A stretch of 64,000 nt of DNA, taken from a virus. Positions within the stretch are counted from its first letter, which is position 1, and each line of letters opens with the position of its first letter. Below, piece by piece: positions 3,145 to 22,342 of the stretch. The notes under the pieces are model-generated. The model did no database searches. It saw nothing but the letters and a program-made list of their open reading frames with translations, and was not told where the DNA came from. Both the position numbers and the translations under genes were made by a program. The stretch covers positions 1 to 64,000 of IMG/VR virus record IMGVR_UViG_3300017719_000007; one strand, given 5' to 3'.

Positions 3145-3227
3145 TTAAGTTATCTTATTTTCTATATTGATAAAACCTTCTACTATTTTCATATTAAATG
3201 ATTATCTATATTATTTATATTTATTCT

Positions 3228-6200: not shown

Positions 6201-6575
6201 TGTTCCATCTGCTTGTGGTACTGAGGCCGGTAAAATCCAATTATTTTTAAACCCTGATGTAGTATCACCAGGGGTATTATATAAAATCCAAGTAGAATTA
6301 TTAAAAGCATATACCTGGTCAAGTTGTGAACCTCCTGGGCCAGATGCATTTTGAATATTTACAGGATCTGCTGCTGCGTTATTAACAGCATCGGCAGGTA
6401 AATTAGCTGGTGGTATTAAATTATAATCAGTAAGTATTCTACTAGGATCCTTTATATTAGGACTGAATGCTAATGAAGATTCGTACCATCTGTTTCCGGC
6501 TGAAGCATCTATAACCCCACCAGCCTGTACTTTAAAGGTTAATTTATTTACTTCATTAATTGAAAATCCTGCCAT
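3228..6575 (-). CDS. Collagen-like tail fibre protein, 1115 aa
   Basis: It starts MAGFSINEVNKLTFKVQAGG and shares its first 215 residues or so with the neighbouring 3144 gene, including the [17 protein letters not shown] stretch. A polyglycine hinge (about residues 206-212) leads into a Gly-X-Y arm of about 195 residues rich in GTQ, GVQ and GLQ. The remaining 700 residues are a beta-rich tip region with Asn, Ser and Thr. They are recognisably paralogous to most of the 744-residue protein just upstream: shared landmarks in order are QVNVF/QVNVY, ILID, FYADN, FHRLF, a LTF(S/T)G strand and a Y(I/A)E(V/I)QI strand near the end. It is probably a virion fibre or adhesin. A promoter-like box lies 24 bases upstream of the ATG. 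Confidence 0.85.
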   Translation of the reverse strand: MAGFSINEVNKLTFKVQAGGVIDASAGNRWYESSLAFSPNIKDPSRILTDYNLIPPANLPADAVNNAAADPVNIQNASGPGGSQLDQVYAFNNSTWILYNTPGDTTSGFKNNWILPASVPQADGTPSNGYGIKLWSGNPATGGTEIPLSAGQANNPGYVGWVFNYDQGLLFISDDLQTDISNNAGGAYPNGFDLYITGFRYIGATGGGGGGGAQGTQGTQGTGGAGSQGTIGIQGAQGTQGVQGISGSGSQGTLGTQGIQGLQGTQGVQGISGSGSQGTLGTQGVQGLQGVQGISGSGSQGTQGTQGVQGLQGTLGLQGTDGSQGTQGLQGTQGLQGLQGTDGLQGTDGSQGVQGLQGVQGLQGTDGLQGIQGLQGIQGLQGVQGVQGILGTGTQGTQGVSGAGGNITVANSDTTDGSSPTFLTGTYTKFNFVDRLDDNRVYAQEDPGDSSQVNVFFPAPDAPIYPNYLNRNVATGSPTPPNATIAENNNPVNRRIAIPNATLTGAAGGNYEDGGWSGSNTLRAVYRQNTQGTISLGSGNTASPVKVRGFGGAAGSGDGSITIDVLDGDGATILESHTVNDIITDGEYKSGSENIILTISGYNTLVNPYNPQDVYEASVKIDVIMGVPGAIAGLGTGVFPNATNARDGGKFTIKISMTADSSGLLVDPPSPDLPLNYSYTVFADANPNTPSLASAVSTFPNVDFANFRYISGIKYYTNGTTLSSSVDDLLTLNGNSIIVNNIRTRIFNWSSNTLAVNDTSYSLSNGTITLTQPGVVNDWDQTLIDYDNNASTFTIVNSSHRYRSQGGNSQFRLLDPWSDTGWGADSIQNKILIDVAHNNSTDLIEYFNLENKRLFRDIGGNTYSGWNSQLSLVDLSQPPNSRTSIVAENLCLVGGEGIAASDFYADNDGTTNLPVTGTVISGDLSNYIPAGNPNYNAMADTPIFHRLFNDPSNPNVVSFNLTFTGNPGVSANFTDALRNSQLKIYIWPVGANANAALQVDPNTGTNYTYLPTYLDPQPGNPYPNIQDSYALSCHGGNQGGAWSAGGWIPFGGTVPSAYTGLDDPGTYLMQASSGGNVGEFSFGSSSNVSVGGVYAEIQIIDRTIRLDQIQYTRIN
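5375..5960 (-). repeat. Collagen-encoding repeat array inside fibre gene
   Basis: The coding strand consists of 9-base Gly-X-Y triplets. Three longer blocks each end in GISGSGSQGT, followed by the GLQGTDG type of unit found in the other fibre genes. The repeat keeps the main frame open and generates shadow frames on both strands. Confidence 0.85.
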
Positions 6576-8862: not shown

Positions 8863-9090
8863 TTATTTTGATTTTAAAAGTTCCATGTACTTATCAAATG
8901 ATAAAAGTAACATTTTCTTTTTCTTTTTCTTTTTTCCTTCAGGATCATCACCACTACCAACCTTTTGTGTAGCAAAAGAATTTGCAGAACCAGGATCACC
9001 AGGAAGCTCAACTGCTCCCATACCCTGTACATTCATATTAGGATTTAGTCCAACAGTACCTGCTTCATTTTCATTAATTAAATTATTCAC
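8863..9090 (-). CDS. Small Lys-rich conserved-looking protein, 75 aa
   Basis: The start is a GTG that overlaps the TAG stop of the upstream nucleotidyltransferase gene (TAGTG), so translation is probably coupled. The product has a Gly/Pro/Asn-rich first half (NVQGMGAVELPGDPGS), then a GSGDDPEG segment, seven consecutive lysines and a C-terminal LSFDKYMELLK segment. That last piece loosely resembles the aromatic capsid-targeting peptides at the start of nearby proteins, but here it is C-terminal. No enzyme motif is visible and the function is unknown. The coding is compact and uninterrupted and fills the gap between two clear genes, which supports it being real. An internal ATG at residue 19 is an alternative start. 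Confidence 0.6.
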   Translation of the reverse strand: MNNLINENEAGTVGLNPNMNVQGMGAVELPGDPGSANSFATQKVGSGDDPEGKKKKKKKMLLLSFDKYMELLKSK

Positions 9091-10460
9091 TATTTAATAT
9101 TTTGTTTCATCCAACGAGTAATCCAACCTTTAAGTTCTTTTGCTGCTGGTTTAATATCAGAAGGTTCTGTTGCTGGTCCATTTTTCCATCTGTCCCAGTC
9201 CATTTGGATTGTACCTAATGCATTTGCAATCTCTGGCATTAATTCAATATACTCTTCATTGATTTCACCTTCTAATAATTCTGGAAACATATCCTCAATA
9301 TCGCTAGCATCTATTGCATAATAGTCACTTTGTAAATAATCAAGAATATCTTTGTTTTTACCTGTCATATCATACCCAGTTCCTTTATTAGCTCCGTTAG
9401 ATTTAACTTTTAGATTAAATGATTTAATTGCATCCATTATATCTGAATCGTCTCCAGATAAATCAACATCTATAGTGCTTACTTTATTAGGGTTTTTTGC
9501 TTTAGCTTTTTTACCTTCATTCAAAGATTCGCCAATGCTAAAACTTGTTAGTGATTTTAAATTTTTCATATTGTTATTTTCTTTTATTGGTTCTAATATA
9601 TTTTGTAATGGTTTATAAAAACTATGTATACTTTTAGGAGTCATTTTCTTAAAAGTCTTTTCATCATCTATCTTTAACGCATTACGAACTTTGGATGCTG
9701 AAATGTTATCATCAGTTCTAAAAATTTCATATCCTTTAAAATCAGGATCTACACCTAATTGATCTCGGTATGATTGTTTGTCAATCATTGCACCGTATGA
9801 TTTTTTTCTATCTGTCCCATATCCCCACATCACAGGTTCATAAGCAGGCCTTGCAGCTGCAAACATTGTATCAATTGAACCATTAGGAACTACAATAGCA
9901 GTTTCTAAAAATGGATATTGTTTTGCCATCTTAGCAAACATTGCTTGTTGCATTTCTTCATCAAACGGTCTTTTCTCAGGATCGTTGTTTTTTCCTCTAA
10001 CTAAAAATACAACTACAGGTTTTCCATTTTCTTTGTACATTTTTTCAAATACTTTAACATGACCTAATGTAAAGGGTTGGAATCTCCCAACAAACATATT
10101 AACCTTTTTCTTGCCTTGTTCTTTATAAGGAACTTTTAAAGCTTCATTAATTGGAGCAGTTGCAGTTCTTACTCTATGACCATAAGGTGATAATGAATAT
10201 CTCTTAATGCCCGTTTCATCTTCACTAATATTAAACAATCCTAAATTTCTTTTAAGCCATCTCTTATGAGCCTTTATTTCAGATAAGATATTGTTAACCT
10301 CATCTTCGGTTAAATGACCATCAGCAACAGCATCTAAAATAGCAGAACGAACTCTTGCTGCAGTAGATACATTTTTAGCTGGATGCTTTTCAGTATATCT
10401 CCTCTTAACAGTAACTCTCTTTTCTGTTATAAAATCTTGTATGTTTTTTAGATTATCCAT
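9090..10460 (-). CDS. HxGH-type nucleotidyltransferase (NMNAT/cytidylyltransferase fold) with N-terminal capsid-targeting-like peptide
   Basis: I chose the ATG at 10460 (MDNLKNIQDFITE); a GTG two codons further upstream is also open. Positions below count from that GTG. Residues 124-136 hold MFVGRFQPFTLGH, the HxGH signature of the nucleotidyltransferase alpha/beta phosphodiesterase superfamily in the form typical of NMN adenylyltransferases. Residues 255-261 hold ISASKVR, the matching ISxxxxR ATP-binding motif. The substrate (NMN, CTP-alcohol or other) cannot be read from sequence. The N-terminal IQDFITE closely matches the T4 internal-protein targeting peptide (YQEFIAE), with a predicted protease cut after the Glu. 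Residues 20-110 are a helical basic segment. After residue 300 a second module begins with MKNLKSLTSFSIGES and ends in a helical acidic domain of about 140 residues, so the gene looks like a fusion. Confidence 0.8.
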   Translation of the reverse strand: MDNLKNIQDFITEKRVTVKRRYTEKHPAKNVSTAARVRSAILDAVADGHLTEDEVNNILSEIKAHKRWLKRNLGLFNISEDETGIKRYSLSPYGHRVRTATAPINEALKVPYKEQGKKKVNMFVGRFQPFTLGHVKVFEKMYKENGKPVVVFLVRGKNNDPEKRPFDEEMQQAMFAKMAKQYPFLETAIVVPNGSIDTMFAAARPAYEPVMWGYGTDRKKSYGAMIDKQSYRDQLGVDPDFKGYEIFRTDDNISASKVRNALKIDDEKTFKKMTPKSIHSFYKPLQNILEPIKENNNMKNLKSLTSFSIGESLNEGKKAKAKNPNKVSTIDVDLSGDDSDIMDAIKSFNLKVKSNGANKGTGYDMTGKNKDILDYLQSDYYAIDASDIEDMFPELLEGEINEEYIELMPEIANALGTIQMDWDRWKNGPATEPSDIKPAAKELKGWITRWMKQNIK

Positions 10461-10472
10461 GTACACTTTTTT

Positions 10473-10481
10473 TATTTATTC
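10473..10481 (-). promoter_or_regulatory. Late-promoter-like box GAATAAATA overlapping stop codon
   Basis: The coding strand reads CTGAATAAATAAAAAAAGTG, and the TAA of the upstream ligase-like gene lies inside the box. It is only 12 bases before the ATG, so a transcript from it would have almost no leader. It could instead act as an A-rich translation-start region. Confidence 0.35.
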
Positions 10482-13400
10482 AGATTCTTCAACCTTTGTA
10501 TTTTTAAACCTTGTTGGTACTGGGTTTGATGGTCTTCCAGTTTTTGTAAATCCTATGTTAAATTCAAACTTAAGTTTAGCAATAGAATTAATACCATCGG
10601 TGGTATCTACTGTTGCTTTACCTGTCTTTTTATCAACACCCCAAACCTCATTTGTAAATAACTGAGATTTTACCGTTTCATTATAAGTATTAGCATAAAC
10701 ATTTCCTAGATTGTAATATGCTTCATATTTAGCCTTAAGATCATCTTCATCTATATCTGGATCTTTTTTCTTAACATAAGCAATTGCGCTAGCAACAGAC
10801 TTATCTCTTCGCTTAATATAATCAGGATCATTTAAATCAAAGTCATACTTTTTAGCAAGATCCTTAATTTCATTAGCGGTCTTTTCAGTATCTTCAGCTG
10901 TACCATCAAAAATGCCTGAATACATTTTAGTTTTATCTGACATTTTTGCTAGGTCATCTTTAGTTTCCTTTGGTGGAATTTTTTGACCTTGTGAATTTGT
11001 AAATTCTTTATATTCGCTTAACTGTGTTTTTTCACCAGACGCAGATGCACCACCAGCACCTTTCTTAATTGACCTAGCTTCAACACCAGCCATAATTAAT
11101 TGTATCTTTTTCTGAATTTCTTCTGGTGAATCTTTTTCATAATCAATTTTTTCTGGAGAAATTGATATAATATCTCCTAATGGGTAATTAGAGGCAGCTG
11201 GCATATAAACATTATTTCCTTTATTTAATTCTCTCATATAAGAAACCATCTCTACTACATCAGCAGCACCAGTTTTCATATAAGGATCTAACATCATAGC
11301 ACCAGTAGTAGCCATTAACTTTTCATCATATTCTTTTGGGTCTTTAATATCTTTGAGTGATTTGAAATCATTCATTATTTTTTCTTGTGCCTTAGTAGGT
11401 TTCTTATCTCCAAACTGTTTCTTAAATCCGTCAGCTATAATATCAGCAGTGCCGTCTTTTAATTTAGTTCTATTTTCTGGTGTTGTTGGTGGAGTATCTG
11501 GAAATGCTGATAAAGTTTCCATTTCACCTTGATCTTTAAATGCTGATTGCGCCTGTTCAACAATTGCATTATATTTTTCTAAGGCAGCTTTTGCCTTTTC
11601 GGCCTCTTTCTTACTTCCGTATATTTTTTCTAATTTTTCAGTACTAGGTATTTCTTGCTTATCATAATTAACATCATCAAATGAAACTCCCCTTTCAGAT
11701 ACACCTACTTTAGTTTTAGATTTCTTATCACCGAATAGCTTAGCACCAGTCATTTGCTTTTTACCAATACGATTAGCAGATTCTTTATCAATATTATCTA
11801 AGCCATAATCTTTTGCCACATTAACTATTGAAGCAGGAGAGCTTTTATCACCTAACACTTTTCTATATAAACCAGTTTTTGCTGTATCTACATAAAACTT
11901 TGAACCGCTTTGATTTTTCTTTATTATATCATCTTCTACCAATTCACCAAATAATTCTTTTCTTTTTTCATCCGATGCATTAGGGTCATTTATAGTTTCC
12001 ATTGCCTTCAAAACCTTTTCGGCATTTTCTTTTTGGTCAGGATCTTTAATATCATTTATTTGTTTCTGAATAACATCATTTATTCTAGAAAGACCTTTTA
12101 ATTTTTTCTCTTCTTCCTTAGGTTCTTTACCTCCAATTACTTCTTTTGCCTTTTTATAAACAGCAGTGTCTTTATCATAACCGATTGCAGAAGAAACTTT
12201 TACCTTTCTTCCCGTTTCAGGGTTTTTGATTTTTTGATCCATTACATCAGCCTCTATGACAACCTTACCTAACTGAATAAAATTATTGTAGTCTAATACT
12301 TTATCCTCAATTAATAGTTCTTCGGCATTAGGCAAAAGAGATTCATTAGTGGATTTAATTTTTAAGTAATCATCAAAAGTTTTAAATTTACCATCATCTT
12401 TTGTTTGGATTACATCAATCACTTTATCTACCATTTTATTAAAATCTTCAATAACTGATGGTGTCATAATGTTACCACTATTCTTTCTTTTCTTTTTTAA
12501 AGAACCTAACATTATTTTAAATAAGTCTTTTAGTTTAGGATTGCTGTTAAGTATATCTTTAGTTCTTTGGCTCGGTATTAATTCTACATTTAAATCAAAT
12601 TCATCACCTTTTGCAAACTCTGCCTTTTCAATATCAATCTTTGTAATATCCTTACCTCTCTTAGTAACATAGTCATTAAAAATATTAGATACCAACTCTA
12701 TGTATCTCATATCTTCAGTATCACCTAGAATCTCATGCTTCTTAATTCCCCTTTCTTCTATAAATGCTAAAAGATCTAATAAAATAATTTCATTAATATC
12801 AGCTGGCATTTTTCTTAAATCAATAGGCTCCTTTTCTTTCATAAGATTAATTGTATAAGGATCTATTAACTTAGCTGCAATTACTTGTTTAGTACCTGAC
12901 TTATAAAACTTAAAGATAATTGATTCAATCGGTTTCTTTAAATCATTTTGTAAAGTAGTAGACTGAATAGAAGGATTTAAAATCTTTAGTAAATATTCAG
13001 CAAATGAGTTTGTATTAAATATAGCAGATTGATCTTCTTTAGGAGTATCTAAAAATTTAGTTATCTTTTTCTTTTGGTCTTCGGTTAGATAACCTTTAAA
13101 TATTGGAAGAAGTGCAGTTACACCTAATGCATTAGCCCAGTCATTTAATACTCTAGGATCCTCGATAACCTTTAAGACTTTACCGGATGGTGATGTAACT
13201 GAAATATGACTAAGTACTAAATTATTTTTAGGTAACCTATCATAAGTAATAATACCAGGGCTATTGTGTGGAAAGTACTGAAAGCAAAACATCCAGTTGT
13301 CTGGGATTGATGATAAATTTTTGGTGACTATTGATTTTATATAATGTATAGGCTTTTCATAGTAAATCATCATGGTTCTATCAATGAGATTAATAGGCCT

Positions 13401-13556
13401 ATGGTTTTTACCTTTATAAAAATTGATTCCTTCACCACTCTTCTTAAAAGAAAAAGAAGAACCTGATAACTTTTCAGTTACCACTAAATAGTCTTTAAAA
13501 AGATCTTCAATTAATTGTTTGCCAGTATCTTTATAAATTTGAGTTAACTCTTTCAT
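10476..13556 (-). CDS. RNA/DNA ligase-like nucleotidyltransferase with long charged C-terminal extension, 1026 aa
   Basis: The N-terminal 245 residues carry covalent nucleotidyltransferase motifs. Residues 25-35 (VVTEKLSGSSF) give motif I with the candidate adenylated lysine K29. ESIIFKF at 210-216 looks like motif IV and AAKLID at 226-231 like motif V. Motif III is not clear: FCFQYF near 89-94 lacks the usual Gly-Glu. The remaining 780 residues are Lys/Glu/Asp-rich, largely helical and contain no domain I recognise. They could be a DNA-binding, structural or packaging extension. The gene sits between a second ligase-like gene upstream and the HxGH nucleotidyltransferase downstream. A hairpin terminator and a promoter-like box precede it, so it may start its own transcript. 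Ligase activity is inferred from motifs only. Confidence 0.65.
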   Translation of the reverse strand: MKELTQIYKDTGKQLIEDLFKDYLVVTEKLSGSSFSFKKSGEGINFYKGKNHRPINLIDRTMMIYYEKPIHYIKSIVTKNLSSIPDNWMFCFQYFPHNSPGIITYDRLPKNNLVLSHISVTSPSGKVLKVIEDPRVLNDWANALGVTALLPIFKGYLTEDQKKKITKFLDTPKEDQSAIFNTNSFAEYLLKILNPSIQSTTLQNDLKKPIESIIFKFYKSGTKQVIAAKLIDPYTINLMKEKEPIDLRKMPADINEIILLDLLAFIEERGIKKHEILGDTEDMRYIELVSNIFNDYVTKRGKDITKIDIEKAEFAKGDEFDLNVELIPSQRTKDILNSNPKLKDLFKIMLGSLKKKRKNSGNIMTPSVIEDFNKMVDKVIDVIQTKDDGKFKTFDDYLKIKSTNESLLPNAEELLIEDKVLDYNNFIQLGKVVIEADVMDQKIKNPETGRKVKVSSAIGYDKDTAVYKKAKEVIGGKEPKEEEKKLKGLSRINDVIQKQINDIKDPDQKENAEKVLKAMETINDPNASDEKRKELFGELVEDDIIKKNQSGSKFYVDTAKTGLYRKVLGDKSSPASIVNVAKDYGLDNIDKESANRIGKKQMTGAKLFGDKKSKTKVGVSERGVSFDDVNYDKQEIPSTEKLEKIYGSKKEAEKAKAALEKYNAIVEQAQSAFKDQGEMETLSAFPDTPPTTPENRTKLKDGTADIIADGFKKQFGDKKPTKAQEKIMNDFKSLKDIKDPKEYDEKLMATTGAMMLDPYMKTGAADVVEMVSYMRELNKGNNVYMPAASNYPLGDIISISPEKIDYEKDSPEEIQKKIQLIMAGVEARSIKKGAGGASASGEKTQLSEYKEFTNSQGQKIPPKETKDDLAKMSDKTKMYSGIFDGTAEDTEKTANEIKDLAKKYDFDLNDPDYIKRRDKSVASAIAYVKKKDPDIDEDDLKAKYEAYYNLGNVYANTYNETVKSQLFTNEVWGVDKKTGKATVDTTDGINSIAKLKFEFNIGFTKTGRPSNPVPTRFKNTKVEESE

Positions 13557-13724
13557 TTGCTTATTTTATATTGTCAATTTATATATTCTTTAAATAAATA
13601 GCTATATAGAAAAAGGATGGTACTATACCTATCCTTTATCATACTCTACTACTTTCAGAGTATATACAAATACTACAAATATTAACTCTTAATACAGGTG
13701 ATCTATATAGGTGTATCTACTATT
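13557..13724 (-). terminator. Intergenic region with intrinsic terminator (13610-13637) and second hairpin (13641-13663)
   Basis: This 168-base gap has no gene. On the coding strand AAAGGAT-A-GGTA, loop TAG, then TACC-ATCCTTT forms an 11-pair stem with one bulged base, followed by a T-run. This is a good rho-independent terminator for transcripts ending after the 423-residue ligase-like gene. Just upstream of it ATACTCT and AGAGTAT form a second 7-pair stem at 13641-13663. Confidence 0.6.
13580..13588 (-). promoter_or_regulatory. Late-promoter-like box GAATATATA
   Basis: The coding strand reads AAGAATATATAAATTGAC, 23 bases before the ATG at 13556. The box lies between imperfect complementary arms (GCTATTTATTT and AAATAAGC), so it may sit in a stem-loop. 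Confidence 0.45.
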
Positions 13725-14996
13725 TTATCTACCATACTTCATAATACCTAACAATTGATTAATTGCAGCAAAGGTACCGGTAAGTTTGTAAATTTTTCCT
13801 TTATATTTAAATACTATTCCTTCAGTTGGAAATATTGATTCTATTCCTCCAATTCTGTCAAGCCTTGCCAATTCAGCTTCAACCTTTCTTACTTGGTCAG
13901 CACCACCAGTCTTTTTAATTTTACTCCCTGCTGTTTGGATTTGAGACCTTAGTCTTTGTGCTTCATCTGTTGGATTAGCCGCTAAAAAGTCAGATGCGTT
14001 TTTAAGAATCACAGATCCTAGTTCTAAAAACAGATCCTCAAAAGGTCTAATGTTTTCTTTATACTTTTTAGCAACATCTTCTTTATCAAACTTTTTAACC
14101 AGTGCAGCTTCCTTGGGTCCAATTTGTTTAGCAAGAGATCTCATATTTAAACTCTTTTTATCGCCGTATGCCCATCTCTTAAGTAAACCTTCTTTTACAT
14201 CCTGTGATAATGATGGGAACTGTTTGTCTATCATTTCCCTCCACCACATTTCATGATATTTAGCAACTTCATCGCTATCAGTTAAACCGTATCTCTTTTC
14301 TAAAGCATTAACTTGATTAATAAATCTTTTCTTATTTGTGGTAAAATCTAAATCTTTTTGTAATTTAATAACTCTAGGTGGAATTATTTTAAATGTTTTA
14401 CCAATATCAGATTCAACCTTTTTAAGTATGTCTGCAATTTCTTTTGCAGGTTTATTATTAGTACCTGTAATATTACCATTACCATCCGTTTCCTTTATAC
14501 CATGAAATTGAATAACATCTGTATCATAATGAATAACATTAGGGTTTTGTGAATAGATTAACTCCATGTTCATAAAGTCTTTTCCATTCTTAAAATATTT
14601 TTCTTGGTCAGCTGGTGAAAGGTTCATTAATAATCTAGCCAAATCCTGTGCAGCAAATTGAAAAGTATCTTGTACTAATTTACTAGGATGCCCTTCAAAT
14701 TTATTCTTAAATTCAGAAAGAGTCATTGGATTCTTTAACTCTGTTTTGTTTCTTGCAAATTTAACTTCACCATCTTGGATAGTAGCAAATGCATTTTGAC
14801 CATCGGTCTTTTCAGTAGCATCTTCTTCAAAGTTTAATTCACCTCTAAGACCAGCATCTATCATCGCCTTAAAATCACCAAAGGTTAAATCTTTATCGTC
14901 AAATGGATGAGCCATGTGACCAGCAGCACCACCTTCAAACAGAAATGGCTGACTTTTGTCAGTCAGCCATTCTTCAAACAGTTTTATATGTTTCAT
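13725..14996 (-). CDS. ATP-dependent polynucleotide ligase-type nucleotidyltransferase, 423 aa
   Basis: The motifs of the covalent nucleotidyltransferase (RNA/DNA ligase) superfamily are present in order. TEKTDGQNAF at 61-70 is motif I, with K63 the candidate adenylated lysine. ARNKTEL at 81-87 looks like motif Ia. FMNMELIY at 141-148 is motif III-like with E145. TEGIVFKY at 391-398 is motif IV, and GKIYKLTG at 400-407 is motif V. The spacing between motifs III and IV is unusually long (about 245 residues) and filled by a helical insert with many charged residues. The N-terminus MKHIKLFEEWLTD resembles the capsid-targeting peptide of T4 internal proteins, but with Asp where the protease usually wants Glu. 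Whether it seals RNA, DNA or adenylylates another target is unknown. An intrinsic terminator follows the gene. Confidence 0.7.
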   Translation of the reverse strand: MKHIKLFEEWLTDKSQPFLFEGGAAGHMAHPFDDKDLTFGDFKAMIDAGLRGELNFEEDATEKTDGQNAFATIQDGEVKFARNKTELKNPMTLSEFKNKFEGHPSKLVQDTFQFAAQDLARLLMNLSPADQEKYFKNGKDFMNMELIYSQNPNVIHYDTDVIQFHGIKETDGNGNITGTNNKPAKEIADILKKVESDIGKTFKIIPPRVIKLQKDLDFTTNKKRFINQVNALEKRYGLTDSDEVAKYHEMWWREMIDKQFPSLSQDVKEGLLKRWAYGDKKSLNMRSLAKQIGPKEAALVKKFDKEDVAKKYKENIRPFEDLFLELGSVILKNASDFLAANPTDEAQRLRSQIQTAGSKIKKTGGADQVRKVEAELARLDRIGGIESIFPTEGIVFKYKGKIYKLTGTFAAINQLLGIMKYGR

Positions 14997-15012
14997 TAAA
15001 TTTGTTTATTTG

Positions 15013-16512
15013 TTACGATCCCATCGTAGATTGTAAAGCTCCGACCATTGCGCCGTAATCTTCACCGTACTTCTTAAGTAATCCATCAGCAGTTTCAGTT
15101 GCTTTAGTTTCATCAAACTCATCTCCGAATGCATCTTTCAGAATAGCCATTGCATATTCTTTAAATTCATCTGCAGATTTAATTTCCTTTTCAGTAATCT
15201 TAGCTTCTCCAACTAATGCAGCACCTTTTGCTTCAGGTTGAACTTTTACTTTACCCATATTCATTATGTCTCCAGCAATACCTGCGGCAGATTCGGAACC
15301 GTCTCCCATTTTTGCAGGGACTTCAGTAGCATCCTTAAGATCATCAGCTTCACCTTTTACTTCGGTTGTAATATTTTGATCTTTAGTAACTAATTCTTCA
15401 CCCTTTGACTCAGGTTGTACTTTTACTTTACCCATATCCATTATATCACCAGCAATACCGGCAGCAGTTTCAGAACCGTCGCCTTTTTCTGCAGGAATAG
15501 CAAGTCCATCATCACCTGCTTCTTCATCAGCAATTTCATCACCTGTAACTTTAGTGATTACTTCACCTACAGCTTCTTCTACAGCTTCTTCTTCTTCAGC
15601 TTCTATTTCTTCTTCATCTACTTCTTCTTCATCATAAGATTCTGTTACGAAATTTGAAAAAGACATAATTCTTGATTCATCTTTCTTTTCTTCATCTTCA
15701 TCATATTCAACATCTTTCTTTAATGCATCAATTTCGGAATCATCAGATTTTACAGCTCCTTTATAGTGGTCTTCCTTTTCTTTATCATCTTCGTGGTCCA
15801 CTTTAACATCACCCTTATCTTCTAATTCATCACCTTTCTTTTCGTCTTCTTCGCCTTCACCTTCATCATCGTCTTCAGCAAGAGGCTTAGCAGATGCAGC
15901 TACAGGAACAGCATAATCCTCAGGCTCTTCATCATCATCATGATATTTAACATTCTTGTTAACTGTAACTTCTTTTTCTTTAATGAAATCTTCAAAAGCC
16001 ATAATTCTTTTAGTAGCGGCTGGAGTTTCTTCTTCTTCAGCAGCAACCTCAACACCATCTTTATCTTCTACTTCATCAGCTTCAGCAGGAACTTCTTTAG
16101 TGATCTCTTGATCTTTTGTTACCAAATCATCTGATTCTTCAGTTTCTTCAACTTCTTCAACTTCTTCAGCAGATTCTTCTTCAGCAACTTCACCTTCTGT
16201 ACCAACTTTATCATCCTCTTTATCTTCTTCGGATTCTAATGATCTAGGTTCACCTTTCTTTTTCTCTTCATCAGCTATGTCTTCAGCTCTATCTTCTTCA
16301 ATTTCTTCTTCGGAAATATCTTGCTTTGGGCTAGCATCTTTAATTAATCCTTCTAATTTAGTTAGAAGATTCTTTTCTTTCTTTAATTCTTCAACACTTT
16401 CGTAACCCATCTTTTTAACAAGATCCATTACAGCGTCGTGAGTAGCTTCAGCAGATTCATTGATTGAATCTTCGGCTTTAGCCATCATTGAAAACTTTTT
16501 GATTGGTTTCAT
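15013..16512 (-). CDS. Highly acidic repeat protein with internal prohead-protease-like sites, 499 aa
   Basis: The sequence is dominated by Glu, Asp and Lys. Residues 20-60 form a helical domain (HDAVMDLVKKMGYESVEELK) and residues 440-499 a second one (SADEFKEYAMAILKDAFGDE); the middle looks disordered. Two internal segments, RIMAFEDFIKEKE at 169-181 and RIMSFSNFVTES at 281-292, resemble the capsid-targeting and cleavage peptides of T4 internal proteins. A repeat of about 59 residues occurs twice (GDGSETAAGIAGDIMDMGKV near 344-363 and again near 403-422), and its LVTKDQ-IT piece appears a third time near 130-138. The acidic composition recalls T4 head-core proteins, but nothing proves that it is the gp22 scaffold, and no portal, protease or capsid gene is next to it. 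A precursor processed inside the head is a reasonable guess. Confidence 0.65.
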   Translation of the reverse strand: MKPIKKFSMMAKAEDSINESAEATHDAVMDLVKKMGYESVEELKKEKNLLTKLEGLIKDASPKQDISEEEIEEDRAEDIADEEKKKGEPRSLESEEDKEDDKVGTEGEVAEEESAEEVEEVEETEESDDLVTKDQEITKEVPAEADEVEDKDGVEVAAEEEETPAATKRIMAFEDFIKEKEVTVNKNVKYHDDDEEPEDYAVPVAASAKPLAEDDDEGEGEEDEKKGDELEDKGDVKVDHEDDKEKEDHYKGAVKSDDSEIDALKKDVEYDEDEEKKDESRIMSFSNFVTESYDEEEVDEEEIEAEEEEAVEEAVGEVITKVTGDEIADEEAGDDGLAIPAEKGDGSETAAGIAGDIMDMGKVKVQPESKGEELVTKDQNITTEVKGEADDLKDATEVPAKMGDGSESAAGIAGDIMNMGKVKVQPEAKGAALVGEAKITEKEIKSADEFKEYAMAILKDAFGDEFDETKATETADGLLKKYGEDYGAMVGALQSTMGS

Positions 16513-16540
16513 TATAATTATCTTTTTTTGATTCTTTTTT

Positions 16541-16549
16541 TATATATCC
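16541..16549 (-). promoter_or_regulatory. Late-promoter-like box GGATATATA
   Basis: The coding strand reads TGGATATATAAAAAAAGAATC, about 28 bases before the ATG of the acidic repeat protein and directly after the uvsW stop. It differs from the common box by one base. Confidence 0.4.
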
Positions 16550-16573
16550 ATCTCTCATGAGAAAGATATTATA

Positions 16574-18076
16574 TCAGTACCTAACATTTTGTACTTCAAA
16601 AGGAAACTTTTCTTCCTTATAAATTTTTCTTCTTTCCATCCCATGTCTGTATATGTAATTTACCCAGTCATGATCATCTACTTTATATCTAAAATCATCA
16701 ATAAAGTCATATATTTTTACTACATCTTTACTTGCATGCTTTCTTAAACCTCTACCGATAGACTGTCTAATAATGACTTCCGATTTAAATGATTCTGTAA
16801 AAAATATGTTATGTATATTTTTAATTGATATTCCAGTTGAAAATGTACCGTATGATGCTACAATAATAACATCATCATTCTTTTCCATTCTCTTTTTGAA
16901 TTCTTCTCTAAAGTCAGACTTAACAGAACCATCAACATAATAAACTTTCTTATCTGTTATTGTCCTAAGTTTTTTATATAGTTTTTCACCGTATGCTATT
17001 TTATGAAATAGTACTAGTGAATTAGATGTTGACTTTTTAATTACTTGGCAAACAAAATCTAACCGTTTTTCGCTTTCATTAATAAAATTTTGCTCTAAGC
17101 TAAATAATTTTTGTCTATCATACGGATTTTTAGATAGAGAAGAAAACGCTTCCTTTTGTGCATCGGTTGCATATTCCATGTGGATCTGTAATACTTTACA
17201 TTTTGCAATATGACCTTCTTCTTGTAAGTGAGCAGCTTTTACTTGGGTTACTAACGGACCCATTGCCGACATTAGACTTAACCTATTTACAGTTCCTCTT
17301 TTAGGAATAGTACCACTTAAACCAAATCTATAATCACAGTGCCAACATTTATCCATTATCTTTTGGATTGAATTTGCTTTTGCTTTATGAGTTTCATCTA
17401 CAAAGACTGCATCAAATTGGCTAAAGTATTCTTCGTCCTTTTTAGTTAAAGATTGATAAGTACCTATAACTACATTTGAACTCTTTCGTAATTTAACACC
17501 AGCATAAATCTGTTGAATCTTAATAGGAACTCTACCTTTATTATATTCTTCAAAATCTCCACTTGCCTGTACTACCAAACTTACATTAGGTACAATCATT
17601 AGGATTTTCTTTTTACCTAACTGTTCCATCATATAAGCAACTACCATAAAGGAGATTAAAGTTTTACCGGCAGAAGTTGCCAATTCAGCCAAACACCTTC
17701 TATACTTTAAAATCTTTATTGCTGCATCAATTTGATAATCTCTTGGTTTAATTTCAGACTTTGCAAAAAATTCATCTACCCATGCTTTAAAAATTTCTTC
17801 GTCTATAGAAGTATCAAAAATATCGGTTATGCCATTTAATGTAAATTGGTAATCATATTGTTTACATATATCAATTACTTCCTTCCATAAACCTGCCGGA
17901 ATTTTGTTTCTTTTAATAAATGAAATGTTACCATCCCAAACCTTTTTCTTTACCAATGGGTGAAACCGCCACCCTTCTATTTTCTTAGTAAGACTAGATT
18001 TTAATTGTTCATATTCCAATTCGGTACATGAATCAATTACTAAAAACTTTTTATTTTCCGACAGAGATAGTTCCAT
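16574..18076 (-). CDS. uvsW: UvsW-like superfamily 2 helicase
   Basis: At 500 residues it is close to T4 UvsW. The N-terminal 110 residues form the UvsW-type cap (LVKKKVWDGNISFIKR near 41-56). Helicase motifs then appear in order: Q-type PRDYQ at 111-115, Walker A ATSAGKT at 133-139, Walker B VDETH at 226-230, SGT at 254-256, and motif VI QSIGRGLRKH in the last 60 residues. In T4 this enzyme unwinds D-loops and R-loops, drives branch migration and switches replication from origin- to recombination-dependent. Its ATG overlaps the stop of the upstream gene (TAATG), so it is co-translated with the small 149- and 71-residue genes and the primase. Confidence 0.93.
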   Translation of the reverse strand: MELSLSENKKFLVIDSCTELEYEQLKSSLTKKIEGWRFHPLVKKKVWDGNISFIKRNKIPAGLWKEVIDICKQYDYQFTLNGITDIFDTSIDEEIFKAWVDEFFAKSEIKPRDYQIDAAIKILKYRRCLAELATSAGKTLISFMVVAYMMEQLGKKKILMIVPNVSLVVQASGDFEEYNKGRVPIKIQQIYAGVKLRKSSNVVIGTYQSLTKKDEEYFSQFDAVFVDETHKAKANSIQKIMDKCWHCDYRFGLSGTIPKRGTVNRLSLMSAMGPLVTQVKAAHLQEEGHIAKCKVLQIHMEYATDAQKEAFSSLSKNPYDRQKLFSLEQNFINESEKRLDFVCQVIKKSTSNSLVLFHKIAYGEKLYKKLRTITDKKVYYVDGSVKSDFREEFKKRMEKNDDVIIVASYGTFSTGISIKNIHNIFFTESFKSEVIIRQSIGRGLRKHASKDVVKIYDFIDDFRYKVDDHDWVNYIYRHGMERRKIYKEEKFPFEVQNVRY

Positions 18077-18525
18077 TAAAATTCCTTATCATCTAAGTTT
18101 ATTCTGTTTCTTATTGCAAATGCCATGTTATCTAAAGTCTTAATACATTCATAATAATAATCTATATGTGACTGTAGCATGTCTATTTGTGTTTTTAAAG
18201 AAGACAGATCTGCTTTTATAAATTGATGTTTTTCGCCGTTAGTTAATTTAACATCATAGTTAATTGAATACTCTCGGTATTGATTTTTATAGTACCTATC
18301 CCAAGTAGCATTTCTTTTATATATTGTTGTTTTAAAATCAGTTACTTTATCTAATAAGATTTGTCTATATGACAACATTCTTACTTGACATTCTGATAGT
18401 TCATTCATATTTTTTAGCTTGGATACAAGATCTTTAATCTTAAGTTTCCAATCATCCCTATCTTTGCCTAATCTAATTTCTAGTTGGTCGTTAGCTTCCT
18501 TTATTTGTGTATCGTCAAATGCCAT
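18076..18525 (-). CDS. Small unrecognised protein between primase and uvsW, 149 aa
   Basis: The protein is predicted to be mostly helical, with charged heptad-like stretches (LKIKDLVSKLKNMNE near 27-41) and a Tyr/Arg-rich centre (DRYYKNQYREYSINYD near 75-90). No known motif was recognised. It overlaps its neighbours on both sides by TAATG junctions, so it belongs to the primase-uvsW operon and may serve replication or recombination. It could be an accessory factor to UvsW, but only the position supports this. Confidence 0.65.
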   Translation of the reverse strand: MAFDDTQIKEANDQLEIRLGKDRDDWKLKIKDLVSKLKNMNELSECQVRMLSYRQILLDKVTDFKTTIYKRNATWDRYYKNQYREYSINYDVKLTNGEKHQFIKADLSSLKTQIDMLQSHIDYYYECIKTLDNMAFAIRNRINLDDKEF

Positions 18526-18740
18526 TAAAATATCCCTTTATTATTATTATTTTTTTTGTAACTTTTAATCTTTGGTTGAAACTTTCTTTTAGGTTCTGGT
18601 AAAGAAAATGTTTTATCAATTTTACTAAGCTCTATTTTATCAAATTTAGTAAAGAGTTTTATTTTCTTTTTTGAATTTTCAAAATCATTATAGAAATCAT
18701 CAAACTGTTCGGTCACAAATTCATTATATTTTTTTATCAT
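18525..18740 (-). CDS. Small basic protein with N-terminal capsid-targeting-like peptide, 71 aa
   Basis: The N-terminus MIKKYNEFVTEQF matches the pattern of T4 internal-protein targeting peptides (KTYQEFIAE), with a predicted cut after Glu11. The mature part would be about 60 residues, with an acidic beginning and a Lys/Arg/Asn-rich end (FQPKIKSYKKNNNNKG). T4 internal proteins are likewise small and basic and are ejected with the DNA. It overlaps the primase stop by ATGA and the next gene by TAATG, so it is co-expressed with replication genes, which is unusual for a head protein. The function is otherwise unknown. Confidence 0.6.
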   Translation of the reverse strand: MIKKYNEFVTEQFDDFYNDFENSKKKIKLFTKFDKIELSKIDKTFSLPEPKRKFQPKIKSYKKNNNNKGIF

Positions 18741-19810
18741 AAGAAAATTAAATCTAAATGATTATCTGTAAAATATTTATCCAACTCATTTAAGCACCCA
18801 GTTCTATTCTTAAATTCATACTTAACCAAATCGTTTAAATCTTTTACCTTTTTCTTAGGTATACTAAAGTCCTTTAAATATTTATCCCACATAAAAACCG
18901 TTTGCCCTTTCTTTAGCTTTTGTATCATTTTAGCTTTACCTTCATAGTCATTATCAAACATATATCTTGCTGTAGGAATTTCATCAAAATCTAAAATCTG
19001 TTTTTTAACACCAGTCAAGCCTATTGTATTTGACATAAAGAAAGAATCTATAGGTCCTTCAAATATTGTAAACTCTCTACCTAAATTAACTGTTAAGATA
19101 CCGAATATCATTGATATTTTATTTAAAGAATCTAATTCTTCTTCAGAAACATTTAGTTGCTTTTTTAATCTATCATATATTCTTTCTATATTCCAAGTCT
19201 TATACTTAGGGCCAGTGGTATTTTCTAATGCCCTAACCTGAAATCCTATTATTTTATTTTCTTTATTTAAATTAAAAACATACAACTCTTTACGCCTTGG
19301 GTCATAACCAAATTTTTCGGTCTTATGGTGAAGTAATCTACTCTTAAGATATGGGTAAGCTCTATATGTTAATGAATTAATAGGATATACATTAAACCCT
19401 ACTGCAATCTCATCAAAAGATAATGCTAATTTGTTAGCTTTATCAAATAAATGAAATTCTAAAGTTTCGCCTAAAGAAAAGTTTTTACTATTATCTTTAA
19501 TGTAATTAAGAACATTAATTCTATCATCACCTTCAAAATTTAAATTATGATCCTTTAAGAATACATCTAAACTTTCATGAGCCGAACAATTATAACAATG
19601 AAAATGTAAATTGTTCCAATATAAATTACCTCTCTTTTTTCTAGGTGTATCATGTGAATCACCACAATAAGGACAAGCAAAATTTAATCTTTCTTTACTT
19701 TCTAATATTCTTCTTTTCTCAGGATGAGAATGGTTTTGATGAAGAACTCGGACCACCTTATCGATGATCCGAGCTTTCATTTCAGAAGATATTATTACTT
19801 CTGTTCCCAT
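18737..19810 (-). CDS. gp61: DNA primase, T4 gp61 type
   Basis: This 357-residue protein has a DnaG-type zinc ribbon near the N-terminus: CPYCG at 46-50 and CYNCS at 72-76, with the SHDTPRKKRGNLYWNN loop between. A TOPRIM core follows, with the acidic FEGPIDSFF motif (about residue 250) and the MFDNDYEGK motif (about residue 288). It makes the RNA primers for lagging-strand synthesis and in T4 works with the gp41 helicase, which is not in this window. It lies directly downstream of the gp32 gene and overlaps the start of the next gene by ATGA. The length agrees with T4 gp61 (about 340 residues). Confidence 0.93.
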   Translation of the reverse strand: MGTEVIISSEMKARIIDKVVRVLHQNHSHPEKRRILESKERLNFACPYCGDSHDTPRKKRGNLYWNNLHFHCYNCSAHESLDVFLKDHNLNFEGDDRINVLNYIKDNSKNFSLGETLEFHLFDKANKLALSFDEIAVGFNVYPINSLTYRAYPYLKSRLLHHKTEKFGYDPRRKELYVFNLNKENKIIGFQVRALENTTGPKYKTWNIERIYDRLKKQLNVSEEELDSLNKISMIFGILTVNLGREFTIFEGPIDSFFMSNTIGLTGVKKQILDFDEIPTARYMFDNDYEGKAKMIQKLKKGQTVFMWDKYLKDFSIPKKKVKDLNDLVKYEFKNRTGCLNELDKYFTDNHLDLIFL

Positions 19811-19814
19811 ATGA

Positions 19815-20735
19815 TTAAAGATCTAAACCGTTAATGAAATCATCAAAATCATCTCCCTTAGAAGAATCTTCGGTTTTAGATGTAGTTGCCGTTGCAGAAG
19901 GTGCAGCGGTTTCTGTTACAGTCGCAGCAGCAGCTTTAGTTGCAGCCGGTGCTGGTGCAGATTTTGCAGTAACAGTATCAATAGAAGATCCTGGGTTACT
20001 AAATTGAGATAGTACGCCCATTACTTTATTTCTCTGTTCATCAGTCCATGGTCTGTAGTCAAAGTTGCCTAAATCCGGTGCATCTTTAATGTAATCAAGA
20101 ATTGCAGTTCTTCCTGCGTCATCAGCTGTTACATCGTTACCGTTAATTGACATTGGAGATCTACTCCCTTGGAATTTACATGAATCGTAGTTTGGATAAC
20201 CACCTTTCTTTGAAATTACTAATTCAAAATTCTTTCCTTCAAAAGGATCAAATACTTGAGTAGGTTCATCAAACTGTGGATTTAACTCTTCATCAATTTT
20301 AGTTTTAATCTTGTATCCAAATTTCATTACTTTAATTTGTCCTTCAAGATCTCTGTTTTGTGGATCTTTTACGATTTGTACTAATGCATAAAATACTTCT
20401 CTACGCTTAAGTCCCTCTGACATCTTTTTGTCTACAGCAGATTCAGAGTTTCTAAGTTTAAAGAACATGTCCTGTACAGCACATTTGTCTCCAACCGTTG
20501 AAGGTGAGTCTGCGTAAAAGCCATTGCCATCTCTGTCTTCTAACCAGTAGACATATTTACGAACGAAAGGTTTACGTGGATTTTTTGCATTAGGTAAAAA
20601 CCTAATTAGTGAACGGTAAGTACCGTCTGAACCTTGATCAGGTTTCGGTGTGTAAAGATCGCTTGTTGTTTGCGGTCTGTCTCCAGTGTCTAGGTCCTTG
20701 ACGCTAACACTGAAAATGTCGAATTCATTTGCCAT
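19815..20735 (-). CDS. gp32: Single-stranded DNA-binding protein, T4 gp32 type
   Basis: This 306-residue protein has the three-part layout of gp32: a basic N-terminus, an aromatic-rich OB core (YRSLIRFLPNAKNP near 40-53, YVYWLEDRDGNGFY near 61-74), and an Ala/Thr/Ser-rich linker leading to an acidic tail ending DDFDDFINGLDL. In T4 that tail docks partner replication proteins. A zinc-binding Cys/His cluster as in T4 gp32 is not evident; only two cysteines are seen, at GDKC and DSCK. This may be a lineage difference. It is preceded by a 192-base leader region with a promoter-like box, consistent with separate regulation of this abundant protein, and followed by the primase four bases later. Confidence 0.92.
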   Translation of the reverse strand: MANEFDIFSVSVKDLDTGDRPQTTSDLYTPKPDQGSDGTYRSLIRFLPNAKNPRKPFVRKYVYWLEDRDGNGFYADSPSTVGDKCAVQDMFFKLRNSESAVDKKMSEGLKRREVFYALVQIVKDPQNRDLEGQIKVMKFGYKIKTKIDEELNPQFDEPTQVFDPFEGKNFELVISKKGGYPNYDSCKFQGSRSPMSINGNDVTADDAGRTAILDYIKDAPDLGNFDYRPWTDEQRNKVMGVLSQFSNPGSSIDTVTAKSAPAPAATKAAAATVTETAAPSATATTSKTEDSSKGDDFDDFINGLDL

Positions 20736-20927
20736 TTTAATTGCCTTTTTATTTTACTTTGTTATTAATTGTGGATATAACGCAGCTCTGCCTATTTTTA
20801 ATTTGCCCGGGTATTGCCAATATACTTTGCCTTGTTATATGCCTGTTTATAAGTCCCTGAATATATCAGTTCCTTTGTTTATTATATATTCATATCTCTA
20901 CTTAGTTTCAGACTAAATAGAACTTTT
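20736..20927 (-). promoter_or_regulatory. gp32 leader region with promoter-like box and stem-loop
   Basis: This 192-base gap has no gene. The box GAATATATA (20883-20891 on the coding strand) followed by ATAAACAAAG could start a transcript with a leader of about 130-140 bases for the gp32 gene, room for the autoregulatory RNA structure known from T4 gene 32. Next to it CTATTTAGT and ACTAAGTAG (about 20898-20920) form a 9-pair stem with a 5-base loop. Read on the plus strand, that stem is followed by AACTTTTTT and would look like a terminator for antisense transcripts. Confidence 0.5.
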
Positions 20928-21194
20928 TTATTGTAAAATAGCGGTTACATCATTTTCTCTGATGCTGAATATAGTTTCATCATTATATTTAAATTCAGTT
21001 CCAGCTAAATCATGAAATAGGACTCTTGCCCCAACTTTGTAATCCTCATCCTCTATATCATTACCTACAGATATGATTGTTCCAGAATAAGGTGGAGCAT
21101 ACTGACCTTCGGTTTTAGGTACATATATACTACCTATTTTCTCTGGTAGTTCATCTTTTTTAATAAATATTCTATTTTTTATTGCTTTTATCAT
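20928..21194 (-). CDS. gp31: GroES-like cochaperonin (T4 gp31 functional analogue)
   Basis: This 88-residue protein has the GroES fold pattern: AIKNRIFIKKDEL at 4-16, a mobile-loop region with VPKTEGQYAPPYSG near 25-38, then GTIISVGND and KVGARVLFHDLAGTEF, and a final IRENDVTAILQ strand. Phage cochaperonins of this type cap the host GroEL so that it can fold the large major capsid protein. It is nearer to bacterial GroES (about 97 residues) than T4 gp31 is. The gene is flanked by an inverted pair of 13-base sequences (ACTTAGTTTCAGA at 20900-20912 and its complement at 21200-21212). Confidence 0.88.
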   Translation of the reverse strand: MIKAIKNRIFIKKDELPEKIGSIYVPKTEGQYAPPYSGTIISVGNDIEDEDYKVGARVLFHDLAGTEFKYNDETIFSIRENDVTAILQ

Positions 21195-21300
21195 AATATT
21201 CTGAAACTAAGTTCTAATTGCTATATATAAAATTTAACAGATTGAAGAAAGAAAAGTATGTAATTACTAGACATAAAAGTATTTAGTGGTTTTCTATGTA
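21195..21300 (-). promoter_or_regulatory. Intergenic region upstream of the cochaperonin gene
   Basis: This 106-base AT-rich gap contains a TTTTATATATAGC stretch on the coding strand (about 21223-21235) that could be a minus-10 element, and the second copy of the 13-base inverted sequence just before the ATG. No gene is visible. Confidence 0.3.
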
Positions 21301-21975
21301 TTAAGTATTCAATGACCACCCTTTTTCTTTATTAGCATTTAATATAAAATACGCATCTACTAAGTCATCTATAGGTTTAGGGATCTTTTCTGTAAAGTCT
21401 TTACCTTGAGTCCATTTCCATAATTTAGTTTTCCTTAAATCTTTATCATTAAAAACGTCATCTTGGAAAGCCTTTACCATATAATGTTTGTTTGCATTAC
21501 CTTTTCCAGCTAATTTCTTTACGTGAGATGGTTGATATATTGAAATATTTTCTACACCCCAAGCATTAACTATTTCATTTCTTAAAAATGTATTATACTG
21601 AACTATGTCAATAAATGAGTTACCTTTTGAACCATACGAAAAACCTTCTAATGCAATCTTATGGTTTTCGGTTCCATATAATGTTATTAAAATATTTGAA
21701 ATTAAGTCTGCTATATTTTGACCATCCGTGAGTTTTTCCCGTTCCCTAAGTAAAAAGTCTTTATCTTTTACTTGTCTATAATACGGAAATCCTAATATAG
21801 TTTTATCATCTACTAACTCTTTATGTATGGAGAACGCTTTAGGTATTTTTTTACCAGCATCATCCCATATTCTATTTCCGTAATTGAAAAATGTAATAAA
21901 TGTGTATTTGCCTTTATGGTCCTGTGTGCAAGTACCTGGGCTGTTTAAGGAGAAGTCTATACCTGTGTAAATCAA
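21301..21975 (-). CDS. RuvC-like Holliday-junction resolvase / RNase H-fold nuclease
   Basis: The frame opens directly after an in-frame TAA, and the first usable codon is TTG at 21975. No ATG precedes the catalytic GIDFSLNSPG (residues 5-14, D7), so a TTG start is needed. Further acidic residues fit a RuvC-type active site: E110 in ALEGFSYG, then D203/D204 and D207 in PIDDLVDAY. SIYQPSHVKKLAGKGNANK (145-163) matches the substrate-loop region of RuvC proteins. It probably cuts branched DNA before packaging, standing in for T4 endonuclease VII, which has a different fold. It lies between a head-targeted small protein and the cochaperonin gene. Confidence 0.82.
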   Translation of the reverse strand: MIYTGIDFSLNSPGTCTQDHKGKYTFITFFNYGNRIWDDAGKKIPKAFSIHKELVDDKTILGFPYYRQVKDKDFLLREREKLTDGQNIADLISNILITLYGTENHKIALEGFSYGSKGNSFIDIVQYNTFLRNEIVNAWGVENISIYQPSHVKKLAGKGNANKHYMVKAFQDDVFNDKDLRKTKLWKWTQGKDFTEKIPKPIDDLVDAYFILNANKEKGWSLNT

Positions 21976-21985
21976 TTATATTAAA

Positions 21986-22342
21986 TTATAGTCTCTTACC
22001 TAATACCGCACCTAATGCAGCACCGATTAATCGACTGGTTAATAAATCATATAAAGCACCCTTTTGGATACCTAGTACTTTTGCAATTGCTTTCCCTACA
22101 GATTTTCCTAATGCAAAACCGGTGAGTCCACCTAAGACAGATCCTAATATACCTTCATTAATAATCTCTTCCATAATAATCTCTAAGTCTTTACCATTAT
22201 TATGTTCTTCCATGATTCTATCAACTGCATTATCAATTGCAGCTTCTTGTTCTTCTGTTAAATCATAAGATTCATTTAATAGATTTTGTATGTCTACCGA
22301 TTCATTATGATTTTCAGTAAGATAGTCTTTAAATGTTTTCAT
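21986..22342 (-). CDS. Glycine-zipper protein with capsid-targeting-like N-terminus, 118 aa
   Basis: MKTFKDYLTE at 1-10 is almost a copy of the T4 internal-protein targeting peptide (MKTYQEFIAE), with the predicted cut after Glu10. Residues 17-62 are acidic and helical. Residues 63-117 are Gly/Ala/Leu-rich with repeated small-x3-small spacing (GSVLGGLTGFALGKSVG, then LIGAALGAVLGK). That pattern is typical of membrane-inserting glycine zippers. A head-packaged, membrane-active ejection or pilot protein is a plausible role but is inferred. It is followed by the RuvC-like gene and preceded by the tail-tube-fold gene. A variant promoter box (TAATATATAAAC) lies upstream. Confidence 0.7.
   Translation of the reverse strand: MKTFKDYLTENHNESVDIQNLLNESYDLTEEQEAAIDNAVDRIMEEHNNGKDLEIIMEEIINEGILGSVLGGLTGFALGKSVGKAIAKVLGIQKGALYDLLTSRLIGAALGAVLGKRL

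Follow-up and report, generated by a model that had tools for sequence, protein, structure and literature searches.

RESULTS

Unrelated proteins begin with peptides resembling T4 capsid-targeting sequences

Several otherwise unrelated proteins encoded in a genome fragment of a T4-like myovirus begin with a short peptide resembling the capsid-targeting sequence of phage T4 internal proteins, and this feature is real, strongly conserved and, among related phages, far above chance. The window analyzed here is a stretch of 64,000 nucleotides, bases 1–64000 of the 68,677-base uncultured virus record IMGVR_UViG_3300017719_000007, which is itself a fragment. Genes for UvsW, a UvsY-like protein, primase, a gp32-like protein and tail proteins were recognized in it; the phage is uncultured and marine and belongs to a large group of marine phages. 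We consider it probable (roughly 0.8) that these peptides, referred to below as tags, act as T4-type capsid-targeting sequences, which would be cut by a protease, with the cargo freed in the head and probably ejected with the DNA.

The targeting sequence of the T4 internal proteins IPII and IPIII, reportedly described by Mullaney and Black in 1996, is N-terminal and 10 residues long, with aromatic residues at positions 4 and 7, an aliphatic residue at 8 and Glu at 10. Like the tags studied here, it is common to otherwise unrelated proteins. The initial annotation of the window gave MKTYQEFIAE as the start of IPI, IPII and IPIII alike; this is correct for IPII and IPIII, and IPI starts with MKTFKEFTSTTTPVSTITE. 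The part of PMC9026906 that deals with mutational work on T4 assigns targeting to residues 4 and 7 and processing to residues 8 and 10, and states that Asp at position 10 allows targeting and blocks cutting. A passage of PMC5694885 has the T4 internal proteins joining the core through such a sequence.

All four peptides listed in the initial annotation are present, each on the minus strand. MKTFKDYLTE (22313..22342) opens a 118-amino acid protein with a glycine-zipper-like end, whose Pfam matches fall below the cut-off, and has a spacing identical to that of IPII and IPIII; MIKKYNEFVTE (18708..18740) opens a 71-amino acid basic protein. A 423-amino acid ligase-like protein starts with MKHIKLFEEWLTD (residues 1–13; 14958..14996), and a 456-amino acid protein with an HxGH nucleotidyltransferase domain starts with MDNLKNIQDFITE (10422..10460). 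The equivalents of T4 positions 4 and 7 are aromatic in the ligase-like, 71- and 118-amino acid proteins; the nucleotidyltransferase tag is a weaker variant with Ile for the first aromatic residue. Glu is found at the cleavage position (aliphatic-x-Glu, residues 8–10) in the 71-amino acid, 118-amino acid and nucleotidyltransferase proteins, and the ligase-like protein has Asp there. The list of tagged genes proved incomplete, since the final 1.1 kb of the record, beyond the end of the window, contains three adjacent short genes on the plus strand that also have tag-like starts (L001:4635-5676). These are MKKVPLFEDFIP, which lacks the final Glu, MIPKFNKYLNE and MIGKFKEFLNE. The gene caller missed the 118-amino acid gene in the window's record, where it is probably overlapped by a longer antisense open reading frame (ORF).

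No internal-head-protein family was among the PHROGs matches of ten window proteins, and no homology of the mature parts to T4 IPI–III was found. In a relative (L018), the first 25 residues of a tagged 108-amino acid protein touch phrog_2667, 'internal head protein' (E 0.029). Defence-system models gave no match for ten proteins, six from the window and four from relatives.

The tag is conserved and confined to certain gene families

To count N-termini, we used as relatives 80 of the 564 reported contigs matching the ligase-like protein, together with the window. The strict pattern used for counts, [FY]xx[FYHW][ILVM]x[E/D], is anchored on positions 4, 7, 8 and 10 of the T4 capsid-targeting peptide. 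Per-gene counts omit homologs that run off the contig start, match only after query residue 45 or have no nearby start, and upstream ATGs within 35 codons were accepted. The strict motif was found at the N-terminus in 82/82 ligase-like homologs (the window's included), 55/57 homologs of the 71-amino acid protein and 72/78 of the 118-amino acid protein. It was absent from every N-terminus of UvsW (0/81), UvsY (0/81), primase (0/81), gp32 (0/80), an 88-amino acid protein (0/56), a 224-amino acid protein (0/79) and the tail tube (0/75), and likewise from a 1026-amino acid protein (0/73) and an acidic protein (0/48) considered below. The nucleotidyltransferase matched the strict pattern in 0/59 cases and a relaxed pattern in 43/59. 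T4-type targeting is thus backed by conservation for the ligase-like, 71- and 118-amino acid proteins, with the reservation that the ligase tag ends in Asp, and is weak for the nucleotidyltransferase. The relaxed pattern was rejected for counts because it has a higher internal background and also catches the start of an ordinary DNA ligase encoded in the window's record, LQSFLDE (L001:1311-2633).

We then scored whole families. Among 2198 distinct proteins, those of at least 60 amino acids formed 570 families after removal of duplicates, and a family was scored as tagged if at least half of its members had the strict motif within residues 1–22. Thirty-six of the 570 families were tagged, 16 of them being single proteins; five internal 22-residue windows used as controls gave 2/570, 3/496, 1/382, 4/322 and 0/280 families (Fisher test for 36/570 versus 2/570, p = 3e-9). 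A frequent form of the tag, MKHIKLFEQFINE and its close variants, occurs on small genes that are otherwise unrelated. The view that one tag is carried by unrelated proteins is therefore sustained, and the concern that the pattern might be equally common in intracellular proteins is answered by its absence from those checked, the DNA ligase caught by the relaxed pattern apart. The targeting reading survived on both points open to computation, the intracellular proteins and the presence of the protease described below.

In single records, the F-only form of the strict pattern matched 8/155, 6/243, 6/230, 2/223 and 1/60 genes, which together give 23/911 genes versus 14/5129 internal windows; the 243- and 230-gene records have most of their tagged genes in common. 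The window's record alone gave 4/60 genes versus 3/377 internal windows with the relaxed pattern and 1/60 genes with the F-only strict form, an enrichment so weak and unconvincing that it was not used as evidence. In one relative (record G002), a tagged protein carries a RimK-like ATP-grasp domain (L101:4466-5410; PF08443 above the cut-off; phrog_2599).

The scaffold of related phages repeats the tag motif

The initial annotation had proposed a search for a gp21-type protease outside the window. The window's own 68.7-kb record gave no match to the S77 (gp21-type) protease, a negative that carries no information in so incomplete a record. The protease was found above the cut-off in 4/18 related records and gp23 in 3/18. 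Records without S77 or gp23 were mostly under 92 kb; G004 (161 kb) yielded neither. The three records that were read have the order portal, (small gene), protease–scaffold fusion and capsid (gp23), the protease being fused to the scaffold in 3/3. Protease-related stretches in viral contigs numbered 127 and 122. Judged by the ligase gene, G001 is the closest (83%) of four long records to the window, and its capsid protein is closest to that of huge phage LR756500, followed by those of Lak, Tenacibaculum and PAU phages.

For the scaffold, 80 loci were taken from the G001 clade and 80 from a sister clade; once loci in which no GELDHP protease could be read had been removed, along with duplicate scaffolds, 52 and 41 distinct sequences were left, respectively. 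Every one of them repeats the motif, with 8–11 copies in the G001 clade (52/52) and 4–9 copies in the sister clade (41/41), compared with about 0.1 copies or fewer in shuffled scaffolds. The commonest spacing between copies is 14 residues (376 cases in the G001 clade and 102 in the sister clade), a period that would suit a long helix. Units follow the form Y-x-x-[YH]-[LIV]-x-E, with which the tags agree in residue kinds and spacing. The scaffold of LR756500 contains three copies.

The head genes of these relatives follow the order of the T4 head core (gp67, gp68, gp21, gp22, gp23), that is, portal, (small acidic gene), protease, scaffold and capsid. Unlike in T4, protease and scaffold form one polypeptide, as is also annotated in Tenacibaculum phage PTm1, and the G001-clade scaffold repeats the tag unit whereas T4 gp22 has no match to the regular expression used on T4. 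The sister clade has a small acidic gene, likened to gp67 by its position, which starts with MKIIKTFEDFISE or a similar sequence at 54/69 loci (28/40 distinct); 11 of the 80 loci had no upstream gene and were omitted, and upstream ATGs were accepted. The aromatic pair is visible in 11 of the 12 unmatched distinct genes and also in the twelfth (L146). The G001 clade has no small gene in this position, and a gene of over 400 amino acids lies directly upstream of the protease in 69/69 loci.

The motif also occurs inside the 499-amino acid acidic protein of the window (15013..16512, minus strand), where FEDFIKE (15976-15996) and FSNFVTE (15640-15660) were confirmed as initially annotated. Among its distinct homologs, 33/34 contain at least one copy (mean 1.9 versus 0.03 after shuffling), and Asp and Glu make up 28–34% of the sequence among the matches listed. 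This protein is a candidate second core protein, which may be cut into acidic pieces.

A probable RNA ligase with a predicted protease site behind its tag

The 423-amino acid protein (13725..14996, minus strand) is a probable member of the RNA/DNA-ligase superfamily, probably an RNA ligase, and a candidate packaged enzyme. It contains a KTDG motif (14799-14810), and K63-T64-D65-G66, R82, E145, E392-G393 and K404 are invariant in 18 aligned homologs; these residues are assigned to the ligase motifs. In structure comparisons of its predicted model, the first 29 Foldseek rows and the first 38 VIA rows were all ligases, with RNA and DNA ligases as top matches at modest scores (best E 0.012, best Z 7.3), so that the ligase fold is a tentative assignment. 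The protein is like T4 RNA ligases 1 and 2 and the Trypanosoma and Naegleria RNA ligases in its KxDG motif and the fold matches of its model. Unlike them, it has no Pfam match and no ligase among its PDB sequence matches, which included only a weak match to RsgI2. RNA repair is our best guess for its role.

The tag of this protein behaves as a separable unit in sequence comparisons, as the residues of the ligase tags that lie outside the motif vary from clade to clade (MKHIKLFEEWLTD, MKILSFKDFLIE, MKKRILNYSEFITE and MKIYNNFEQFVTE) while the whole proteins of relatives stay 65–86% identical to that of the window. The ligase homolog of huge phage LR756500 carries the same tag (MKFLKSYEEFLNE). 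Because the tag ends in Asp, the T4 rule predicts no cut at that place. A [LIV]xE sequence at residues 19–21 stands directly before GG[AS][AS]GHM in 82/82 homologs (58 LxE, 22 IxE and 2 VxE), and E21, G22 and G23 are the first invariant residues after the start Met in the 18 aligned homologs. In the window this sequence is FLFE (14934..14945, minus strand), before GGAAGHM, with the cut predicted after residue 21; it is a likelier cut site than the Asp of the tag. Residues 1–29 of the predicted model have a predicted local distance difference test score (pLDDT) under 50, which places the tag outside the confidently modeled fold. Given the invariant [LIV]xE and the poorly modeled residues 1–29, the mature enzyme likely starts at residue 22.

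The nucleotidyltransferase (9090..10460, minus strand) contains GRFQPFTLGH (10059-10088), and its PF01467 domain scored 31.3 bits against a cut-off of 21. A second tag-like stretch, MKNLKSLTSFSIGESLNE, lies at 9516-9569. The neighboring 1026-amino acid protein (10476..13556, minus strand) has no N-terminal tag and gave no family match. Its N-terminal part includes EKLSG (13461-13475), which might be another ligase-like motif; the idea of a clear second ligase was dropped because the sister-clade consensus, EKIxAPSF, has no Gly, which makes a ligase reading weak and only possible. Its sister-clade homologs are shorter and carry a fused HxGH domain, and their consensus ends in MTFDQFIN (10 aligned, one partial). 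Such C-terminal tag-like ends are MTFDQFINHNK (L080:11312-13189), LLTFNEFIKNI (L055:11663-13501) and MTFDQFLKNI (L074:11241-13145). The predicted model of the L080 homolog (mean pLDDT 61.7) was too poor for a structure search. A single ORF combines HxGH nucleotidyltransferase and ligase-like domains in Microcystis phage Mel-JY01 (L211:8290-10209) and likewise in huge phage LR756508 (L213:13552-16230). Such a pair, if packaged, could plausibly repair RNA or join nucleotides at the onset of infection.

A small protein copies the N-terminal arm of the major capsid protein

A 75-amino acid protein of the window (8863..9090, minus strand) mimics the N-terminal arm of the major capsid protein. It has a lysine run and terminates in LLLSFDKYMELLKSK, with the C-terminal tag-like sequence LLLSFDKYM at 8884-8910. 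Its identity to the G001 capsid arm is 61% over 46 amino acids, so that about 45 residues are copied; across the family, identity to the arm is 57–73% over 36–47 amino acids among the matches listed. A search with the 75-amino acid protein gave at least 49 loci, and at least 31 rows match only residues 5–50. Four of those or similar loci, when read, were all capsid genes, and L360 gave no gene. In other clades, the arm segment follows a DUF3008-like stretch (a DUF3008 domain in L055) and is linked to tagged cargo, running into tags of which MKYVKTFESF and LKTFEQFINE are examples.

Other features of the window

The 71-amino acid gene overlaps the primase gene (ATGA) and sits among replication genes. 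T4 gp61.1 (L207:18966-19130), beside primase gene 61, starts with MKTFKEFIKE; by eye, it shows no likeness to the 71-amino acid protein beyond the tag. A candidate late-promoter-like sequence, TATATAAA, lies upstream of the acidic, 1026- and 118-amino acid genes. Within the region 39-6575, the gene at 3228-6575 encodes a protein containing collagen-like GTQGTQG repeats, and the repeat region 39-2330 yields long repetitive ORFs in other frames.

Comparison with T4 and other phages

As a control we applied the regular expression [FY]xx[FYHW][ILVM]xE to the first 20 residues of the T4 proteins. It matched 3/271 called genes (ipII, ipIII and gp61.1). In T4 gp23 it matched FGSFLTE at residues 59–65, the gp21 cut site. 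It had no match in gp67, gp68, gp22, gp24, gp21, IPI or Alt. Because the T4 cargo proteins IPI and Alt are missed, the tag is imperfectly defined by this pattern and is a specific but incomplete sign. Unlike in T4, the tag is found here on many more families, the ligase-like enzyme among them, and some tags end in Asp.

Other phages have comparable peptides of different sequence. In Sphingomonas phage PAU (L220-L231), 17/294 genes, many of them small, start with MK[TS][LI]xxL[YF][ED], and 12 of the 17 lie at 100.2-113.7 kb, where the portal, protease and scaffold genes sit; two of those 12 are annotated as scaffolding and internal capsid protein. PAU thus resembles the window's group in having one N-terminal peptide on many small genes and differs in the sequence of the tag. 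In LR756508 (L214:9405-18570), 9/35 genes near the prohead protease share another basic start, of the LRxIIREEI type. Both patterns were written after viewing those genes, so the contrasts with internal windows are descriptive only. The two kinds of start suggest that each phage lineage may have its own tag. Neither an N-terminal tag of this sort nor scaffold repeats turned up in the head regions examined in three other Bacteroidota-type phages, Tenacibaculum phage PTm1, Flavobacterium phage MaF61 and Prevotella phage Lak-A1. According to the portion of PMC9024508 that treats phage P1, an N-terminal signal takes the large protein DarB into the head, as proposed for the tags here; the Dar proteins differ in having no common consensus and a longer signal of more than 9 and less than 30 residues.

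DISCUSSION

Comparison among relatives gives the targeting reading good support, and from it we infer packaging and ejection. During head assembly, the tagged proteins would join the prohead scaffold core and the shell would close round them. The gp21-type protease, fused to the scaffold in this lineage, would then cut after [LIV]xE, destroy the scaffold and release the cargo within the head. Once freed, the tagged proteins may remain with the DNA, probably be ejected together with it and act early in the host. The window's own phage would need the same head module as its relatives, with the tag binding to the core.

Several observations weigh against this account. No S77 match came from the window's fragmentary record or from 14/18 related records, the 161-kb G004 among them, and G001 has no small tagged gene ahead of the protease. 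The strict pattern is rare at G001 N-termini (F-only form, 2/223 genes), and the relaxed one also picks up an ordinary DNA ligase. The regular expression misses known T4 cargo. The nucleotidyltransferase tag is degenerate and the weakest of the set, with no first aromatic residue and lost in part of the family, and the location of the 71-amino acid gene would lead one to expect early expression. The head regions examined in PTm1, MaF61 and Lak-A1 have neither tag nor scaffold repeats. Packaging, cutting and ejection are predictions, and the papers listed in our literature search included no proteome of virions from a closely related phage.

The tagged proteins might instead be structural parts of the prohead core that are packaged and cut and have no role after ejection, with the ligase and HxGH folds serving head assembly or DNA handling. 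The gp67-position gene and the acidic protein share the motif and resemble core components, and the fused HxGH–ligase gene of Mel-JY01 lies near terminase and prohead protease genes, both of which would suit such a role. However, the invariance of the ligase catalytic residues in 18 aligned homologs suggests that enzymatic function is kept, and the 36 tagged families are numerous and variable, more like cargo than a fixed structure; we regard a purely structural role as unlikely, if deserving serious attention. It is considerably less probable that the tag sends proteins elsewhere, to a replication site or a host partner, with a convergent resemblance to T4. That the 71-amino acid gene sits amid replication genes and that gp61.1, also tagged, adjoins the T4 primase gene would fit such a destination, but the motif is repeated in 93/93 distinct scaffolds and absent from the replication proteins checked. 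Chance or composition, in AT-rich genomes that often start genes with MK and aromatic residues, has very little to recommend it as a general explanation. The window's record taken alone is unimpressive (F-only strict, 1/60) and single genes such as the nucleotidyltransferase are open to chance; against this stand the family-level enrichment, counts of 0 of 56–81 in each of seven neighboring control genes, and ligase tags that differ between clades and yet keep the motif in 82/82.

Capsid targeting is therefore the reading we prefer, and the scaffold repeats offer a reason why it would operate: the tag may work because it copies one unit of the tandem 14-residue array. In a more tentative extension, to which we give somewhat less than an even chance, the targeting sequence would be one detached scaffold unit, and any protein gaining such a unit at either end would be built into the core. 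Units at the C-terminus would be exemplified by MTFDQFI and LLLSFDKYM. Cargo would then trade freely, the RNA ligase and the HxGH nucleotidyltransferase would be delivered with the DNA, and the 75-amino acid protein, a copy of the capsid arm joined to a tag unit, would bridge shell and core.

The general principle is already known, as a portion of the review PMC9026906 mentions other proteins with such sequences in T4-related phages, and parts of other reviews cover head-packaged effectors and phage tRNA repair (PMC9503650, PMC7824862). Our literature search covered titles and the starts of abstracts among the matches listed, with few subscription papers, and within it no report concerned these phages, a scaffold composed of repeated tags, an RNA ligase packaged in the head or a capsid-arm mimic. 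As far as searched, the repeat scaffold, the packaged-ligase candidate and the capsid-arm mimic are unreported.

To our knowledge, the core partner of the T4 targeting peptide is not settled. A tandem scaffold built on the same four-residue code offers a direct, testable answer to what that partner is. The sequence rule also predicts which proteins would be carried in the virions of uncultured phages, among them a probable RNA ligase.

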